From a virus: a DNA stretch of 42,444 nucleotides. This document shows positions 32,000 through 39,280 of the stretch, one piece after another (positions within the stretch are counted from its first letter, which is position 1; the number at the start of each line of letters is the position of its first letter). The stretch lies in IMG/VR virus record IMGVR_UViG_3300006734_000014, positions 1 to 42,444 of that record; one strand, given 5' to 3'. The translations under genes were made by a program, and so were the position numbers. The notes beneath the pieces were generated by a model. The model was not told the origin of the DNA. It worked only from the letters and a program-made list of their open reading frames with translations, and ran no database searches.

Positions 32000-32267
32000 C
32001 TTTCCGTTGGGATTCCAGCTCATCGTACCAAGGTGCAGTCAGGCGCATTTCACCACCAAGCTTTTGAGACTCACCAGTCTGAAGCTTGGGGTCAAACGAT
32101 TTCTCTGTGTAGATCGGGCGTTGTTCTTTCTCCCGCTCTAACTCGGATTCAATCCGATTTTCCAGCTCAATCATATCAAGCCTGGCCTTAAGTTTTGCTT
32201 CAAACCAGACACGTTTCCACCATCGGATGATGGCGTCGATGATCTCCTTAAACAAGGTCCGCTTCAT
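31986..32267 (-). CDS. Charged helical protein of the replication operon
   Basis: From ATG 32267 it has 93 residues: FKEIIDAIIRWWKRVWFEAK with an amphipathic helix, then a long charged helix (ELENRIESELEREKEQR) likely to be a coiled coil. The start lies 20 bases inside the end of the nuclease gene. A frame start at 32309 exists but would overlap further. It may be an adaptor for the nuclease, which is inference. Confidence 0.55.
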   Translation of the reverse strand: MKRTLFKEIIDAIIRWWKRVWFEAKLKARLDMIELENRIESELEREKEQRPIYTEKSFDPKLQTGESQKLGGEMRLTAPWYDELESQRKDGKP

Positions 32268-33102
32268 AAATAGAACAGTTGTCAACCTGCTTGTAGTATT
32301 CAGCAACAACCTTCAGCCAATCTTCTCTCAGCGAATCAAGAAACCGCCTGGAAATCTTGAAGATCTGAGTCCTGACTGGAGTCGACACTAGGATTGCAGC
32401 CTGGTCCACTTTGAGACCAAGGGTTTGTTCAATAGCCATATCGTAGGCAGCGAGTTGTTTGCATGTCTTTTTAAATTTCATGTACCCACCGAGCAGGTCA
32501 CGCCATTCCTGCGAACCCTTCTCGTATTCCTTAGGCCACTTGCGGCTGTAAGGCTTCACACTGGTCTTCAGATCAGCGAGAGTAAGTTTATTGCGAACCA
32601 CACCGATAATGTCAGGAGCGCCAGCCCAAGCACGACCCTCATCGTCGCACCCCCATACGCGAGCCACATCATCAGCACCAATTGTGAAGTTAAAGTCATC
32701 ACAAACAGGAGACTCTGCCCACAGAACATCAGAAAACTGATCCAGAATCGGCGGCATCCCCGCCCAAAAATCCTTGTATTCATCAGGGATCTCAGGATTT
32801 TTGTTTCCTTTTAGGTACTGCTCCATGCCAAAGTGAACTGCAGTACCGCGCTCAGCAGCAGCTTCTTTGACGCCTGGATTTGCTTTCGACCACATTTCAA
32901 GCTTCCGTTTGTTTGCTTCGGAAGCTGTTTCGCTGATAATAGTGGTTACGGACGGCGCAGGTCCAGTAGGTAACGGAGTGGTGTAATGCCTTTTTCCGTT
33001 AAGCGTAATTCTGGCTGCGGTCCTATTCAGTGACCGCATAGTCTCTGGTTGCTGATCCTTAGCGTAAATCCAAGGATCGTTTGTCTCTATCTTAGCAACC
33101 AT
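32248..33102 (-). CDS. PD-(D/E)XK exonuclease (RecB/Cas4-like)
   Basis: All core residues of the fold are seen in the 284-residue protein: ERGTAVHFGME (His90), WAESPV (Glu130), AWAGAPDIIGVV (Asp164), LTLADLKTS (Asp177 and Lys179) and KQLAAYDMAIE (Gln216-x3-Tyr220). Such phage exonucleases degrade host DNA or resect ends for recombination-driven replication. It heads the minus-strand replication operon, and a short stem (33097-33110) lies over its start codon. Confidence 0.85.
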   Translation of the reverse strand: MVAKIETNDPWIYAKDQQPETMRSLNRTAARITLNGKRHYTTPLPTGPAPSVTTIISETASEANKRKLEMWSKANPGVKEAAAERGTAVHFGMEQYLKGNKNPEIPDEYKDFWAGMPPILDQFSDVLWAESPVCDDFNFTIGADDVARVWGCDDEGRAWAGAPDIIGVVRNKLTLADLKTSVKPYSRKWPKEYEKGSQEWRDLLGGYMKFKKTCKQLAAYDMAIEQTLGLKVDQAAILVSTPVRTQIFKISRRFLDSLREDWLKVVAEYYKQVDNCSIYEADLV

Positions 33103-33154: not shown

Positions 33155-33256
33155 GTGCAAGGATTCAATTACGCGATTGCTGCAGTCCTAGGAGCTATGC
33201 TTGTGGTCATCAGCCTTGACGCTTACATATTCCTGAAAGAGGTTGCCGCACGATGA
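33155..33256 (+). CDS. 33-residue single-span membrane protein next to hli
   Basis: The GTG start has a strong Shine-Dalgarno (GGAAGGA, eight bases upstream), rare in this genome. The protein is MQGFNYAIAAVLGAMLVVIS followed by LDAYIFLKEVAAR: one membrane helix with a short charged end. Its stop overlaps the hli ATG (ATGA), so it is translated together with it. In size and layout it is like the small photosystem or cytochrome b6f subunits, but it matches none that I recall. Thylakoid location is inferred from the partner. Confidence 0.65.
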   Translation: MQGFNYAIAAVLGAMLVVISLDAYIFLKEVAAR

Positions 33257-33501
33257 ACGCCTTACAAAAGACCAAGCTCTGGATCTTGGGGATGTGGTCA
33301 TGCATCAGCTGGGTGATTGTTGAGATTTACAAAGAGTACTGTCCTGATCTGAACTTCAAAAACATCCCGCTCCACCCGTCTGACTACATCTGGTATGCAG
33401 AACGCTGGAACGGAAGGGCAGCCATGCTTGCCGTTGTCTTTATCTTGCAGTGGGAGTTGATTACCGGCCAGTCAATTTGGGAGTTCATAGGTGTCCGTTA
33501 A
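33253..33501 (+). CDS. hli: High-light-inducible protein (Hli) with an extra N-terminal hydrophobic segment
   Basis: The 82-residue protein holds the Hli signature ERWNGRAAMLAVVFIL followed by E and TGQSIWEF, at about residues 50-77. Glu50, Asn53 and Arg55 are the chlorophyll-binding and ion-pair residues of the LHC fold. Hli proteins quench energy and protect photosystem II, and cyanophages carry them to keep photosynthesis running. Phage Hli are usually 35-60 residues with one span. Here residues 8-28 (KLWILGMWSCISWVIVEIY) form a further hydrophobic stretch. It overlaps the genes on both sides. Confidence 0.85.
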   Translation: MNALQKTKLWILGMWSCISWVIVEIYKEYCPDLNFKNIPLHPSDYIWYAERWNGRAAMLAVVFILQWELITGQSIWEFIGVR

Positions 33502-33652
33502 GCTTACCCGTTTTTACTACGACGTGGATGAGGAGGTGCGTACTGCGTGCTTCCGCAACAAGTCGTGCGATGAGGTTGACACCGACAAAGCAGACGAGTA
33601 TGAAGAGTACCTAAAACAAACGGGTATCGACTATACCCGCATAGACCTCTGA
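33491..33652 (+). CDS. 53-residue acidic protein of the hli operon
   Basis: Starting at GTG 33491, inside the end of hli, it reads SVKLTRFYYDVDEEVRTACF, then RNKSCDEVDTDKADEYEEYL. It ends with the TGATG that opens the glycosyltransferase gene. The strong coupling on both sides supports a real gene. It has two Cys and many acidic residues and no known motif. A CGGGTAT...ATACCCG stem (33621-33639) lies inside its end. Confidence 0.55.
   Translation: MSVKLTRFYYDVDEEVRTACFRNKSCDEVDTDKADEYEEYLKQTGIDYTRIDL
33621..33639 (+). promoter_or_regulatory. 7-bp perfect stem-loop upstream of a glycosyltransferase start
   Basis: CGGGTAT and ATACCCG flank CGACT. The stem ends 12 bases before ATG 33652 and lies within the preceding coding sequence. 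Confidence 0.45.
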
Positions 33653-34497
33653 TGGCAGCACCGATCCTGGCTGTACTGACTCTGTGGCGAGACAGCGGTG
33701 ATTACATTACTGATTCCCTGGCCCGGTTTGACGAGATGGAATATCTCCTCAACAAGCAGGGCATTGGTTGCGTCTACTCATTTTTTGAGAACGATTCCGA
33801 GGACAACACCCCATTTGAACTGCTCAGTTGGCTGCGGAAACACAAAGGTATTTTGCAATCTGAAACCATTGGCGCACCTCGGTGGGGCAGCGTCTCCTCC
33901 CTAGATCGAGTTCGTTACCAGGCCCGGTACCGCAACCTGGCACTCCAACCCCTGAATGCGTATTACAACTATGACTATCTGTTGGTAGCCGATAGCGATG
34001 TCCACTGGGAACCTGATCTCCCACTAGAAATGATCAAACGCCTGGACAAGGAGGAGAGCTGGGGGATGGTGTCACCCAACACAATACAGAACGTACGCGA
34101 CTACGTAGAAGATACCGACCGCCCCTCCTATTTTGATAGCTGGTCCCTCAAAGACAGGGACGACAATCAGTGCTTGACCTTTGCTGCAAATCCTTTCTTG
34201 CGAAAGACGGATCGAGAACGGTGGGAGAAAGGCCAACCCGTGTCATGCAATAGTGCGTTTGGCTCGATTGCCATGGTGAAAGCTGAGGCCATGGAATGCC
34301 AAGACGGTGTTGAGTGGGCCGTAGTTGATGGTGTAGAGCACTGGGAATTTTGTGCTGGTCTCCGCAGCAATGGATATAAGGTCATCGCTGATCCCAGTTT
34401 GCATGCTGAGATCGTGCACAAAAAAGAGGTGGTGCCCCACCCCGATATTGTTCAGTATCACCGAGACCGTCTTCAGGTTGCCCTGGCAACGTCGTAA
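33652..34497 (+). CDS. CAP59/Anp1-like glycosyltransferase
   Basis: The 281-residue protein has a GT-A-type plan: LTLWRDSGDYITDSLARFDE at the start, CVYSFFENDSEDNTPFELLS, DYLLVADSDVHWEPDLPLEM with the DSD metal motif, and EHWEFCAGLRSNGYKVIADP near the end. These features recall the fungal CAP59/Anp1 mannosyltransferase group. A second, more distant member lies at 36716. The donor cannot be read, but the nearby gmd suggests a GDP-hexose. Its 3' end overlaps that of gmd by 25 bases. Confidence 0.75.
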   Translation: MAAPILAVLTLWRDSGDYITDSLARFDEMEYLLNKQGIGCVYSFFENDSEDNTPFELLSWLRKHKGILQSETIGAPRWGSVSSLDRVRYQARYRNLALQPLNAYYNYDYLLVADSDVHWEPDLPLEMIKRLDKEESWGMVSPNTIQNVRDYVEDTDRPSYFDSWSLKDRDDNQCLTFAANPFLRKTDRERWEKGQPVSCNSAFGSIAMVKAEAMECQDGVEWAVVDGVEHWEFCAGLRSNGYKVIADPSLHAEIVHKKEVVPHPDIVQYHRDRLQVALATS

Positions 34498-35498
34498 GAA
34501 ACCATCTCCTCTACCAGATCTTCCAGGGTGGAATTAAGTTTCCACCCTAATTTTTTCTGTGCATAGCTGGAGTCACCAAGCAGGGAATCTACTTCTGCTG
34601 GACGGTAGTACTCAGGGTTGATGCGGATTACCACCTGATCAATCTTAGGACAGTACCCAACCTCATCAATGCCTTCTCCTTCCCATACGATGGGCAGACC
34701 AGCCTTGTCAAAAGCCATCTCACAGAAGGTACGGACACTCGTTTGTTGACCCGTGGCAATCACATAGTCACCCGGCTCATCTTGCTGGAGCATCAGGTAC
34801 ATGGCTTCCACATAGTCACGGGCATGCCCCCAGTCCCGCTTGGCATCCAGGTTACCCAGCTCAACAAACTCTTGACGGCCACGCCAGATCTGACCAACTG
34901 CCCTGGTGATCTTACGCGTCACGAACTCTTCGCCACGAAGCGGTGATTCGTGGTTGAAAAGGATGCCGTTACACCCGAATAGGCCGTAGCTTTCCCGGTA
35001 GTTGATTGTCAGCCAGTACCCAAACAACTTGGCGACACCGTATGGACTACGCGGATAGAAGGGCGTCGATTCTACTTGGGGCACCTGCTGCACCTTGCCG
35101 AACATCTCTGATGTTGCAGCTTGGTAGAACTTTGGTTTGGCATTGGCATTACGACAAGCCTCCAAAATATTCAACACCCCTATTGCGTTCGTATACGAGG
35201 TACTCCCTGGTGACTTAAAGCTGACACCTACATGACTCTGAGCTGCCAGATTGTACACCTCATCTGGAGCAAAGGAATCTACAGCCCGATGCACAGAGGT
35301 GGCATCGGTCATATCGGAGTACTCAAACTTGACTTCAGCCGGGATCTGACCATGAAAGATCCACTTGAGTTTGTCTTTGCTGCCTGGGTTTGCGTTGTTA
35401 CGAATCAAGCCCAGAACCTGGTACCCCTTATCGATCAAGCTACGGGTGAGGTAGGCGCCATCTTGACCGGTAATTCCAGTGATCAGTGCTTTTTTCAT
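34473..35498 (-). CDS. gmd: GDP-mannose 4,6-dehydratase
   Basis: The 341-residue length is usual for the family. ITGITGQDGAYL (6-17) is the NADP-binding loop. AATSEMFG holds Thr129 and Glu131, SPYGVAKLFG holds Tyr153 and Lys157, and NHESPLRGEEFVTRKITRA with LDAKRDWGHARDYVEAM form the GDP-sugar site. It converts GDP-D-mannose to GDP-4-keto-6-deoxy-mannose, the entry to GDP-fucose, perosamine, rhamnose or colitose. The divergent gene at 35550 acts on this type of product. Gmd genes occur in other cyanophages and are thought to alter surface sugars. Confidence 0.95.
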   Translation of the reverse strand: MKKALITGITGQDGAYLTRSLIDKGYQVLGLIRNNANPGSKDKLKWIFHGQIPAEVKFEYSDMTDATSVHRAVDSFAPDEVYNLAAQSHVGVSFKSPGSTSYTNAIGVLNILEACRNANAKPKFYQAATSEMFGKVQQVPQVESTPFYPRSPYGVAKLFGYWLTINYRESYGLFGCNGILFNHESPLRGEEFVTRKITRAVGQIWRGRQEFVELGNLDAKRDWGHARDYVEAMYLMLQQDEPGDYVIATGQQTSVRTFCEMAFDKAGLPIVWEGEGIDEVGYCPKIDQVVIRINPEYYRPAEVDSLLGDSSYAQKKLGWKLNSTLEDLVEEMVSYDVARAT

Positions 35499-35529: not shown

Positions 35530-35549
35530 CAGGATGTAAAGCGGTGGAC

Positions 35550-36728
35550 ATGGCTCTGTTTGATTGGCCGCTCCAGAAAAACACCATCGGCTTTGACGAA
35601 AAGCTGGCGCTGATCAAATTCATTCTTACCAGTGACCGTTTTACCAACGGTCCCAAGTGCCGTGAGTTTGAGAACGAATGGTCCCGCTGGCAGGGATGCA
35701 AGTACAGTTTGTTTGTCAGCAGCGGCTCTACCGCCAACACTCTCTTGCTTGACGCAACACGAGAACTACTGTTTGGCAAGAATGAAAAGCTGACAATCTT
35801 GTGCCCTGCTGTCAACTGGGCAACTAACATCTCGACCTTCAAACAACAAGGTCACGACATTTATTTCTATGACATCGATTACTATCGCTACTCACCAACC
35901 CTTGAATCTCTGGAGTACCTTCAGTCTCAGGGCGTAAAGCCTGACATCATTTACGCCACCCACCTGATGGGGTTTGGTGCCAACCTCAACATTGTTCGTT
36001 CGTTCTGGCCTGAGGCAATTCTACTGGAAGACTGTTGTGAATCCCATGGAGCAATTACGTTCGACTGTAAGAAGGTAGGCAACCTGGGACTTGGCTCAAC
36101 CTTTTCGTTTTACTTTGGCCATCACATGACCACCATTGAAGGTGGCATGGTATGCACAAATAACGAGAAATTGTATAACTTAATGCGTGCAAAAAGGTCT
36201 CATGGCTTATCTCGTGAGATGTATGGACAGTACCGGCTTGATATAGAGAATCAGTACGAAGATATTGATCCGGCCTTCCTGTTTCCAACCGAAGGATATA
36301 ACTTCCGGAACAATGAATTAGGAGCTGTAATTGGTAAAGTACAACTTAAAAAACTAAATGAGTTCATATATCAACGTGCCGCAAATTATCGTAAGTTTGA
36401 AAATGAAATGCATGAGCACCCAGCTATCAAACACCTACCCAATCACTGGGGCAACAGCGCCATGACACTTCCGTTCCATTGTGTCTCAGCTGAGTCTCGT
36501 GATTACATGATGAACTTCCTCAGGTACTTGGGCGTTGAAACCCGTCCGTTCCTGGTAGGCAACCTGTTGCGTCAGCCCTTCATGAAGGACTACGACAAGA
36601 GTGTGCGTTTGCCCAACACAGAAGAAATCCATACCCACTCCTTCTATATTGGGAACAACCATTTCATCAATGAGCGTCAGGTTAAGGCGCTTACTGACAA
36701 ACTCCATCAGTACCAATGCGTGCTCTGA
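35550..36728 (+). CDS. DegT-fold PLP enzyme with His in place of the catalytic Lys (ColD/E1-like sugar 3-dehydratase)
   Basis: From ATG 35550 it has 392 residues (a GTG two codons earlier is possible). The fold is the DegT/DnrJ/EryC1 sugar aminotransferase type: FVSSGSTANTLLLDA (cofactor loop), YATHLMGFGANLN, LLEDCCESHGA (Asp) and LGSTFSFYFGHHMTTIEGGM. In sugar aminotransferases the residue six before the Glu of GEGG or AEGG is the Lys that holds PLP. Here it is His191. The same change marks ColD, which removes the 3-hydroxyl of GDP-4-keto-6-deoxy-mannose, and E1 enzymes. With gmd next door, GDP-4-keto-3,6-dideoxy-mannose is the likely product. No ColC-like partner is seen. Confidence 0.8.
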   Translation: MALFDWPLQKNTIGFDEKLALIKFILTSDRFTNGPKCREFENEWSRWQGCKYSLFVSSGSTANTLLLDATRELLFGKNEKLTILCPAVNWATNISTFKQQGHDIYFYDIDYYRYSPTLESLEYLQSQGVKPDIIYATHLMGFGANLNIVRSFWPEAILLEDCCESHGAITFDCKKVGNLGLGSTFSFYFGHHMTTIEGGMVCTNNEKLYNLMRAKRSHGLSREMYGQYRLDIENQYEDIDPAFLFPTEGYNFRNNELGAVIGKVQLKKLNEFIYQRAANYRKFENEMHEHPAIKHLPNHWGNSAMTLPFHCVSAESRDYMMNFLRYLGVETRPFLVGNLLRQPFMKDYDKSVRLPNTEEIHTHSFYIGNNHFINERQVKALTDKLHQYQCVL

Positions 36729-37450
36729 TCTCGACCATCGTTCGCAACCGTGGACGCCACATCTCATCTTGGGCCAACCAACTAATCCAGCTGGCTGAGC
36801 AAAACCCTGATGTGGTGTTCGACTTGTTTGTGTTCGAGAATGACTCAACGGATACAACAAAACAGGCTCTACTTGCTGTAGAGCCTTTACTCAACAAAAA
36901 ACTAAACAAGGTTGACATTCAAATCACCAACCTTGATTGGCCCTATTTTCATTCCGTTAAAGCAGAACAACGAGTTGACTACCTGGCACAAGCCAGGAAC
37001 AAAACATTGGATCGTGCACACGAGGTTTACAACCTCGCTACATATGACAAGGTGGTGTGCATTGAACCTGACATCAGCTATCACACGTTTGCAATCGGTA
37101 AACTTCTGTACACCGATCTTGATATTGCCTCTGGTTACAGCTTCCTTCCCCAGGGAATGGGCGTACCAGATTGGATCTATGACAGCTGGGCAACCCGAGT
37201 ACATCCAGAGGATAGTGAATACTTCGGCCCACACATTTCTGAACTGCCTGAGTGTTTGCCCGTAGCTTCTACTTTCAATTGTTTCTGCGTCTACCAAGCA
37301 CAACCATTTATTGACGGCGTCCGTTTCTCTGGTATCAACCCACGCACCAAAACCTGGGACTGCGACACAACCAACATCTGTTTTGAATTTGCAGATCGGG
37401 GATACGACAAAATTGGCATGTACAACATTGGCGTTCTCCATAAACCCTGA
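36716..37450 (+). CDS. CAP59/Anp1-like glycosyltransferase (second copy)
   Basis: The protein has 244 residues. VFENDSTDTTKQALLAVEPL, YLAQARNKTLDRAHEV, DKVVCIEPDISYHTFAIGKL and TFNCFCVYQAQPFIDGVRFSG follow the order of fungal CAP59/Anp1 transferases. It lies just after the ColD-like gene, overlapping its end by 13 bases. It shares FENDS with the transferase at 33652. It might transfer the dideoxy sugar made by gmd and the PLP enzyme, which is inference. Confidence 0.75.
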   Translation: MRALISTIVRNRGRHISSWANQLIQLAEQNPDVVFDLFVFENDSTDTTKQALLAVEPLLNKKLNKVDIQITNLDWPYFHSVKAEQRVDYLAQARNKTLDRAHEVYNLATYDKVVCIEPDISYHTFAIGKLLYTDLDIASGYSFLPQGMGVPDWIYDSWATRVHPEDSEYFGPHISELPECLPVASTFNCFCVYQAQPFIDGVRFSGINPRTKTWDCDTTNICFEFADRGYDKIGMYNIGVLHKP

Positions 37451-37498: not shown

Positions 37499-37699
37499 AT
37501 GTCTCTGCCAGAATATGAAGAAGCACTTCTGAAGGGTTACGAATTCCTCGAAAACCACAATCAGTTGCTGCATAGTTTACAGCTGTCCCGCATCAATGTT
37601 GATAATCACACCTATACTGAGAACACCCAAGGAATCGGAAATGAGCCTCTCCAGCCAAGTGAAGGAATCGGTCAACCAGGCAGCGGAGAACCTGCGTGA
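37499..37699 (+). CDS. Small hypothetical protein
   Basis: From ATG 37499 it has 66 residues: SLPEYEEALLKGYEFLENHN, then QLLHSLQLSRINVDNH and a Gly/Pro/Gln-rich end. The first half is one long helix. It overlaps the next gene by 59 bases in another frame, as do several genes in this cluster. Function is unknown. Confidence 0.5.
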   Translation: MSLPEYEEALLKGYEFLENHNQLLHSLQLSRINVDNHTYTENTQGIGNEPLQPSEGIGQPGSGEPA

Positions 37700-37841
37700 T
37701 GCGCTTGCGTTTGCTGCACGCGGCGAACATCCCATTGTGATCAGCATGCTTTCTGATATGCTGACCAGGCTTGACTCCTTGGAGCAGATGGATGAGTTCA
37801 TGGAGAAATTCAGCGGTGCCGCAAGCAAGTCGCAAGGCTAG
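37641..37841 (+). CDS. Small helical protein found in many cyanophages (SSQVKESVNQAAENLRDAL type)
   Basis: From ATG 37641 it has 66 residues. SLSSQVKESVNQAAENLRDA is followed by FAARGEHPIVISMLSDMLTR and LDSLEQMDEFMEKF. This two- to three-helix protein, with the AARxERP- or AARGEHP-like turn, recurs in cyanopodo- and cyanosiphophages. I do not know its role. A frame start at 37596 is less likely. Confidence 0.7.
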   Translation: MSLSSQVKESVNQAAENLRDALAFAARGEHPIVISMLSDMLTRLDSLEQMDEFMEKFSGAASKSQG

Positions 37842-38602: not shown

Positions 38603-39280
38603 GTGACTACTCTTGTCGCCAACGTACCTCCAGTCAAAGTCTGGGTACGTCGCGAGTATCTACGTGACCTACGTGATGGACACGGTGAGTACACGCCAGG
38701 TTATTGGGTGACGTGCAAGTCCTTGACAGGACGTGCCCTCTACTTTGAAACTTACCTTACGGCCTATGGTGCGTTATACGACAAGCTTCCCATCAGCGCG
38801 TTTCTTGCCTGGGATTCTGACCACCCAGACAAGCCTGTAGCACCTACACCAGACCTGGAGCTAACCGACCTGCAGTTCTGGAATGGGTTCGATACAGGTC
38901 TGACCGTAATCGAAAAGAACCTCATTTATAACATGGAGTTCCAGGTGATGACCCGCAGTGCCGGGATCATGACTGGCGAGTACCTCTTTACGATTGATAA
39001 CTACCACCCTCACCGCAACGAACCAGACTTTTACTTTGCTGAGTTTCCAGACGAGCACAAGTCCCACAACATTGTGGCCCTGTCAAATGGACAGATTGGT
39101 GCCTACCCAAACAACAGGTGCCGCATGGTTGACCCATCGCTTAGCAACCACAACCTCAAAACACCAGACTTTAAGGTATCAACAAGATACTTTGACGTAG
39201 AACACGCCCCCAAATGGGGTCGTCTTGGAGAATGTGATGATTACTTTTGGAAGACACCAAACGAGAAAGATGTACAATAA
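38603..39280 (+). CDS. Conserved hypothetical phage protein
   Basis: From GTG 38603 the protein has 225 residues: VKVWVRREYLRDLRDGHGEY, then ALYFETYLTAYGALYDKLPI and DNYHPHRNEPDFYFAEFPDE. It is rich in Tyr, His and Asp, with no membrane segment. The same opening (VWVRREYLRDL) is known to me from other cyanophage hypothetical proteins. The start is flush with a terminator, so it is either made from its own transcript past that terminator or is under attenuation. Confidence 0.7.
   Translation: MTTLVANVPPVKVWVRREYLRDLRDGHGEYTPGYWVTCKSLTGRALYFETYLTAYGALYDKLPISAFLAWDSDHPDKPVAPTPDLELTDLQFWNGFDTGLTVIEKNLIYNMEFQVMTRSAGIMTGEYLFTIDNYHPHRNEPDFYFAEFPDEHKSHNIVALSNGQIGAYPNNRCRMVDPSLSNHNLKTPDFKVSTRYFDVEHAPKWGRLGECDDYFWKTPNEKDVQ

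Follow-up and report, generated by a model that had tools for sequence, protein, structure and literature searches.

The question raised by this locus is what a virus would make with a nucleotide-sugar enzyme in which a histidine takes the place of the lysine that binds PLP in sugar aminotransferases. The gene lies at 35544..36728, on the plus strand of a 42,444-nucleotide stretch of viral DNA (IMG/VR record IMGVR_UViG_3300006734_000014; hereafter the window), and encodes 394 amino acids from the GTG at 35544 or 392 from the ATG at 35550, which is the more likely start and the one from which His191 was counted in the initial annotation. Its product falls in the DegT/DnrJ/EryC1 fold family (PF01041, 2e-52), and this match together with an AF2 model places it among the fold type I PLP enzymes. 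The nearest solved structures by sequence are four ColD entries (2gms, E 1.6e-49), followed by E1 (1.5e-27) and then by Lys-type sugar aminotransferases. Modelled by AF2 from an alignment of 49 viral relatives (mean pLDDT 91.3), the protein gave ColD chains as its 12 best matches in a Foldseek search of the PDB (top TM 0.87), then E1 and then GDP-perosamine synthase. With ColD first in both sequence and fold, the gene is predicted to encode a ColD-type (His-type) nucleotide-sugar 3-dehydratase, at about 30% identity to the E. coli enzyme. Purifying selection on it is strong, with pN of 0.02-0.09 vs pS of 0.38-0.59 among close relatives, and 0.17 vs 0.72 between the window and locus L004 (NG86 in both cases). 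A scan for promoters and terminators was not used as evidence, as promoter-like sites were no commoner than in shuffled sequence.

The histidine itself sits in the motif FYFGHHMTTIEGG (codon 36120..36122, plus strand) and aligns with native ColD H188 and E1 H220, in line with the replacement claimed in the initial annotation. ColD H188 is the residue mutated in 3b8x (H188N) and 3gr9 (H188K/S187N), and the 2r0t sequence has a lysine at the same position. This histidine is shared by every one of the 49 viral proteins in the alignment and by 80 of the 80 bacterial homologues checked; with the purifying selection on the gene, the replacement is not a matter of chance. Besides H188, the ColD residues G56, S57, D159, E162, S183 and N248, which we take to be cofactor-site residues, are identical in the aligned window protein. 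The lysine-to-histidine swap has been described as the key difference between 3-dehydratases and sugar aminotransferases, and a 2Fe-2S cluster as present in E1 and SpnQ and lacking in ColD (PMC8987622). In the window protein the E1 cysteines C251/C253/C257 are aligned with R222/M224/Y228, so that the 2Fe-2S cysteine set is missing, the ED(C/N)C motif alone retaining its Cys positions.

Three other readings of the enzyme have to be weighed against these data. The names in the databases speak for a sugar aminotransferase similar to GDP-perosamine synthase (3bn1, 3dr4) with PLP on another lysine, since both families matched by the protein, PF01041 and phrog_3139, are called aminotransferases; furthermore, GDP-perosamine synthase shares the fold and the probable substrate (it uses the same Gmd product), it is the first Lys-type match by fold, and K215 is also invariant in the viral alignment, with an Ile at the aligned ColD position. 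However, every relative that was read has a histidine and no PLP-binding lysine at the motif position, ColD and E1 rank above every Lys-type enzyme by sequence as well as by fold, and GDP-perosamine synthase, a Lys-PLP aminotransferase, is only 22% identical; the position of the histidine and these rankings led to the rejection of this reading, which is very improbable. Even harder to sustain is an iron-sulfur 3-dehydratase of the E1/RfbH type acting on a CDP sugar: RfbH is indeed the best NCBIfam match and the relatives in S-CAM7 are annotated as CDP-4-keto-6-deoxy-D-glucose-3-dehydrase, but the score is 150 bits against a cut-off of 423, the neighbouring gmd makes a GDP sugar and the E1 cysteines are replaced, so it was rejected on the cysteines and the score. 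An enzyme of the 3-dehydratase fold with a different outcome, for instance the 3,4-isomerisation or epimerisation of a GDP-keto sugar, would fit a phage clade distinct from the characterised ColD, yet it is also improbable, because neither the catalytic histidine nor any residue aligned with the cofactor site has been lost.

The genes on either side point to the substrate and to a possible use of the product. On the minus strand, an intact gmd for GDP-mannose 4,6-dehydratase (34473..35498; TIGR01472 470 bits, curated cut-off 415) diverges from the ColD-like gene with 45-51 bases between the starts; the adjacency pointed out in the initial annotation recurs in 30 of 30 close relatives. Downstream, capB (36716..37450, plus strand; PF11735 2e-16) encodes a CAP59/CMT1-type glycosyltransferase, a candidate user of the sugar, whose start overlaps the end of the ColD-like gene by 13 bases; a CAP59 gene is present downstream in all 30 closest loci and adjoins ColD in 24/24 island loci (see below). 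A second CAP59-type glycosyltransferase gene beyond gmd, capA (33652..34497, plus strand; PF11735 5e-10), is an optional part of the cassette, found in nine of the 24 ColD-type island loci. Taken with the top ranking of ColD and the missing E1 cysteines, the linkage to gmd supports ColD-type 3-dehydration of the Gmd product as the best reading, and the probability that the protein is a ColD-type 3-dehydratase acting on GDP-4-keto-6-deoxymannose fed by the phage Gmd can be put at about 0.8.

The family, the fold, the histidine, the absence of Fe-S cysteines, the linkage to an intact gmd and a transferase, the purifying selection, the exchange at one island and the absence of ColC in large relatives were all computed here; the reaction, the use of host Fcl, the sugar identity and the acceptor are inferred, as follows. 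The phage Gmd would convert host GDP-mannose into GDP-4-keto-6-deoxy-D-mannose, on which the ColD-like protein would act as a metal-free, PLP/PMP-dependent 3-dehydratase. PMP would be made in the enzyme from PLP and glutamate and form a ketimine at C4 of the sugar, His191 would act as the base for the loss of the C3 hydroxyl, and hydrolysis would release GDP-4-keto-3,6-dideoxy-D-mannose. Most likely, the GDP-L-fucose synthase of the host (Fcl, a ColC homologue) would then epimerise C5 and reduce C4, producing GDP-L-colitose, since ColC is lacking from the phage records searched. The final transfer, onto a glycan on either the host surface or the virion, would fall to the adjoining CAP59-type transferase.

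The last reduction is the step for which the phage offers no gene of its own. ColC, which the initial annotation had proposed to look for outside the window, did not appear: a search with the Fcl-like protein of S-CAM7 found no Fcl/ColC match in 19 close viral records, and gmd was the only PF01370 match in 12 of them of 64-88 kb, the S-CAM7 positive control giving two. These records are linear, none is flagged complete and ends may be missing, but they break at different places and reach up to 88 kb vs 79 kb for S-EIV1. A ColC hidden elsewhere in the phage was rejected on these searches. Thus, the joint presence of ColC and ColD that a complete colitose pathway would involve was not found in the close relatives, the window itself being a fragment. 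Owing to this absence from large relatives, colitose would need a host enzyme. Among 386 Cyanobacteriota genomes surveyed, 57 contain CsoS2, which served to mark alpha-cyanobacteria. With a threshold of E 1e-40, Fcl was found in 40 of these 57; with one of E 1e-50, a ColD-like gene was found in a single one of them (G384). Host Fcl may therefore finish the sugar, and the last step most probably comes from the host. The tree joins the ColD-like protein of G384 (locus L180) to E. coli ColD, and a more divergent Fcl relative adjoins its gene; the two are likely a true ColC-ColD pair.

The colitose-like sugar proposed by the initial annotation consequently stands as a plausible product and not as a settled one, another reduced 3,6-dideoxy sugar being possible, and the chances of colitose as the final product are about even. 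A reductase that does not epimerise C5 could complete the work of the same 3-dehydratase, giving GDP-3,6-dideoxy-D-mannose, with the stereochemistry of tyvelose, or a related sugar. Such an ending would agree with the lack of any ColC/Fcl homologue in the 19 close viral records, with gmd as the sole SDR of the PF01370 type in the 12 larger ones and with the 17 of 57 sampled alpha-cyanobacterial genomes that have no Fcl at the threshold used, but it is the less likely ending, as most of the sampled candidate hosts do have Fcl and, in the related T4-like phages, ColD comes with an Fcl-like gene.

The more distant viral loci resemble those of the T4-like cyanophages S-CAM7 and ACG-2014f, which have gmd, fcl and ColD in a row on a single strand and often a GT11 gene after them; an fcl homologue (at least 40% identity) stands directly before ColD in 29 of 50 such loci. 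On the GDP-L-fucose synthase model, whose cut-off is 500, the Fcl-like protein of these loci reaches 420-422 bits; it is for this reason regarded as an Fcl relative, which may work as Fcl or as ColC. The gmd-fcl-ColD-GT11 order, as read from the genes, may supply the whole route. These cassettes share with the window the enzyme family (40-46% identity) and the gmd that makes the substrate, but all their genes, an Fcl/ColC-like gene and GT11 included, lie on one strand near tail-fibre genes, whereas CAP59 transferases, a divergent gmd and no Fcl are found in the window. Genes for sugars of the host surface are known from phages, among them gmd and fcl in T4-like cyanophages, and a modification of the surface against other phages has been proposed (PMC9602691); no 3,6-dideoxyhexose route in cyanophages was found in the open-licence literature searched. 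The phage 3-dehydratase relatives (phrog_3139; KU686212.1 164022-165155) are labelled as aminotransferase, hypothetical or CDP-4-keto-6-deoxy-D-glucose-3-dehydrase, and those that were read show the His motif of the ColD type and lack the E1 cysteine set.

In a quick tree, whose deep forks remain open, the window protein falls in an all-phage clade (19 rows with support 100; 22 rows with 96), which is nested in a broad His-type family from many bacterial phyla, and E. coli ColD sits on a separate branch. Because of this separation, the substrate could differ from that of ColD, and its assignment as a GDP sugar draws mainly on the neighbouring gmd and less on descent. The window protein resembles E. 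coli ColD (2gms, 3b8x, 3gr9) in fold, histidine for lysine, aligned cofactor-site residues, absence of Fe-S cysteines and link to gmd, but it is phage-borne, has no ColC alongside and carries G190 in place of S187. A Crocinitomicaceae MAG contig (L089, 1303-3398) with gmd-ColD-fcl, whose gmd is 80% identical to that of ACG-2014f, nests in the phage clade and would be either a phage contig in the MAG or a transfer. Relatives of the ColD-like protein are encoded in at least 564 viral stretches of IMG/VR and at least 530 genome stretches, so that the rarity claimed in the initial annotation holds for the alpha-cyanobacterial genomes sampled, with their single ColD-like gene, and does not extend to viruses and bacteria in general.

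Most of the 42 kb fragment runs collinear with Synechococcus phage S-EIV1, the primases being 56% identical, and judged by these similarities the source virus is an S-EIV1-like Synechococcus phage. The four genes of the cassette, in the order CAP59a-gmd-ColD-CAP59b, are missing from S-EIV1 and sit exactly between two small plus-strand genes with orthologues there: on the left, a gene that matches the high-light-inducible family (33253..33501; phrog_178 5e-5; 46% identity to S-EIV1 13681-13893) and, on the right, a gene conserved with S-EIV1 (37596..37841; 56% identity to 14786-15025). The cassette is thus an insert in a conserved backbone. An exonuclease-like gene on the minus strand (32248..33102; phrog_298 7e-32) adjoins this sugar island and was used to anchor a survey of the 80 loci most like the window exonuclease, near-identical contigs included, so that the following counts are not population frequencies. 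Among the 59 loci with the whole flank, 24 carry gmd, ColD and CAP59b, 15 a different His enzyme, four only a CAP59a relative and 16 none of these genes. The 15 alternative enzymes, at one point suspected to be aminotransferases, a suspicion that was rejected, proved to be His-type proteins of the E1 class that carry the motif SFYPAHHITT and, without exception, the CYCVG...C cysteine set; the two that were scored reach 353 and 359 bits on RfbH. They have the fold and the histidine of the ColD-type enzymes and lie at the same genome position, but they differ in the four cysteines for 2Fe-2S, in an identity of 28-32% to the ColD-type and in the company of an SDR and a GT2-like gene, to which L248 adds RmlC and RmlB above curated cut-offs (E1/RfbH-type cassettes are located at 2656-5431 in L188 and 782-5442 in L248). 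The ColD-type and the E1-type cassettes were never found together in the 59 loci. A tentative model, given somewhat less than even odds, is that S-EIV1-like cyanophages have a dedicated island that swaps unrelated GDP/ColD-type and E1-type cassettes converging on a 3,6-dideoxyhexose, and that the phages with the ColD-type borrow host Fcl, which would turn the fucose route into a colitose route by a single step.

Four points go beyond the initial annotation: ColC is lacking, the phage probably depends on host Fcl, it is S-EIV1-like, and ColD-type cassettes are exchanged for E1-type ones at a single site. If the reading is correct, a phage lineage of small cyanobacteria adds a sugar for which no ColD-type gene turned up in 56 of the 57 candidate-host genomes sampled, and does so at a site that holds another dideoxysugar enzyme in sister phages. 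The system would then be a model in which receptor masking, superinfection exclusion or decoration of the virion could be tested. Databases list cyanophage ColD-like proteins as aminotransferase or hypothetical.

Some minor observations concern the rest of the island and of the window. Several islands free of dehydratase encode a conserved protein of ~195 amino acids (IVETGTYREENNYTGDGCSTLLFDNY), possibly a methyltransferase (L217 4992-5579, L253 4600-5181, L187 4892-5473), and two islands with only a CAP59a relative (L227 2529-5440, L211 1922-3002) contain apparent genes for a HAD phosphatase and a sugar nucleotidyltransferase, which would make them additional sugar cassettes in this position. 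In the window, the best PHROG match of 38603-39280 is phrog_3704, named ferredoxin, a label that looks wrong for a protein with three scattered cysteines and no ferredoxin motif. Finally, a GT4-type glycosyltransferase (27313-28608) and an S-adenosylmethionine decarboxylase (28599-28958) adjoin the primase and are common to S-EIV1.
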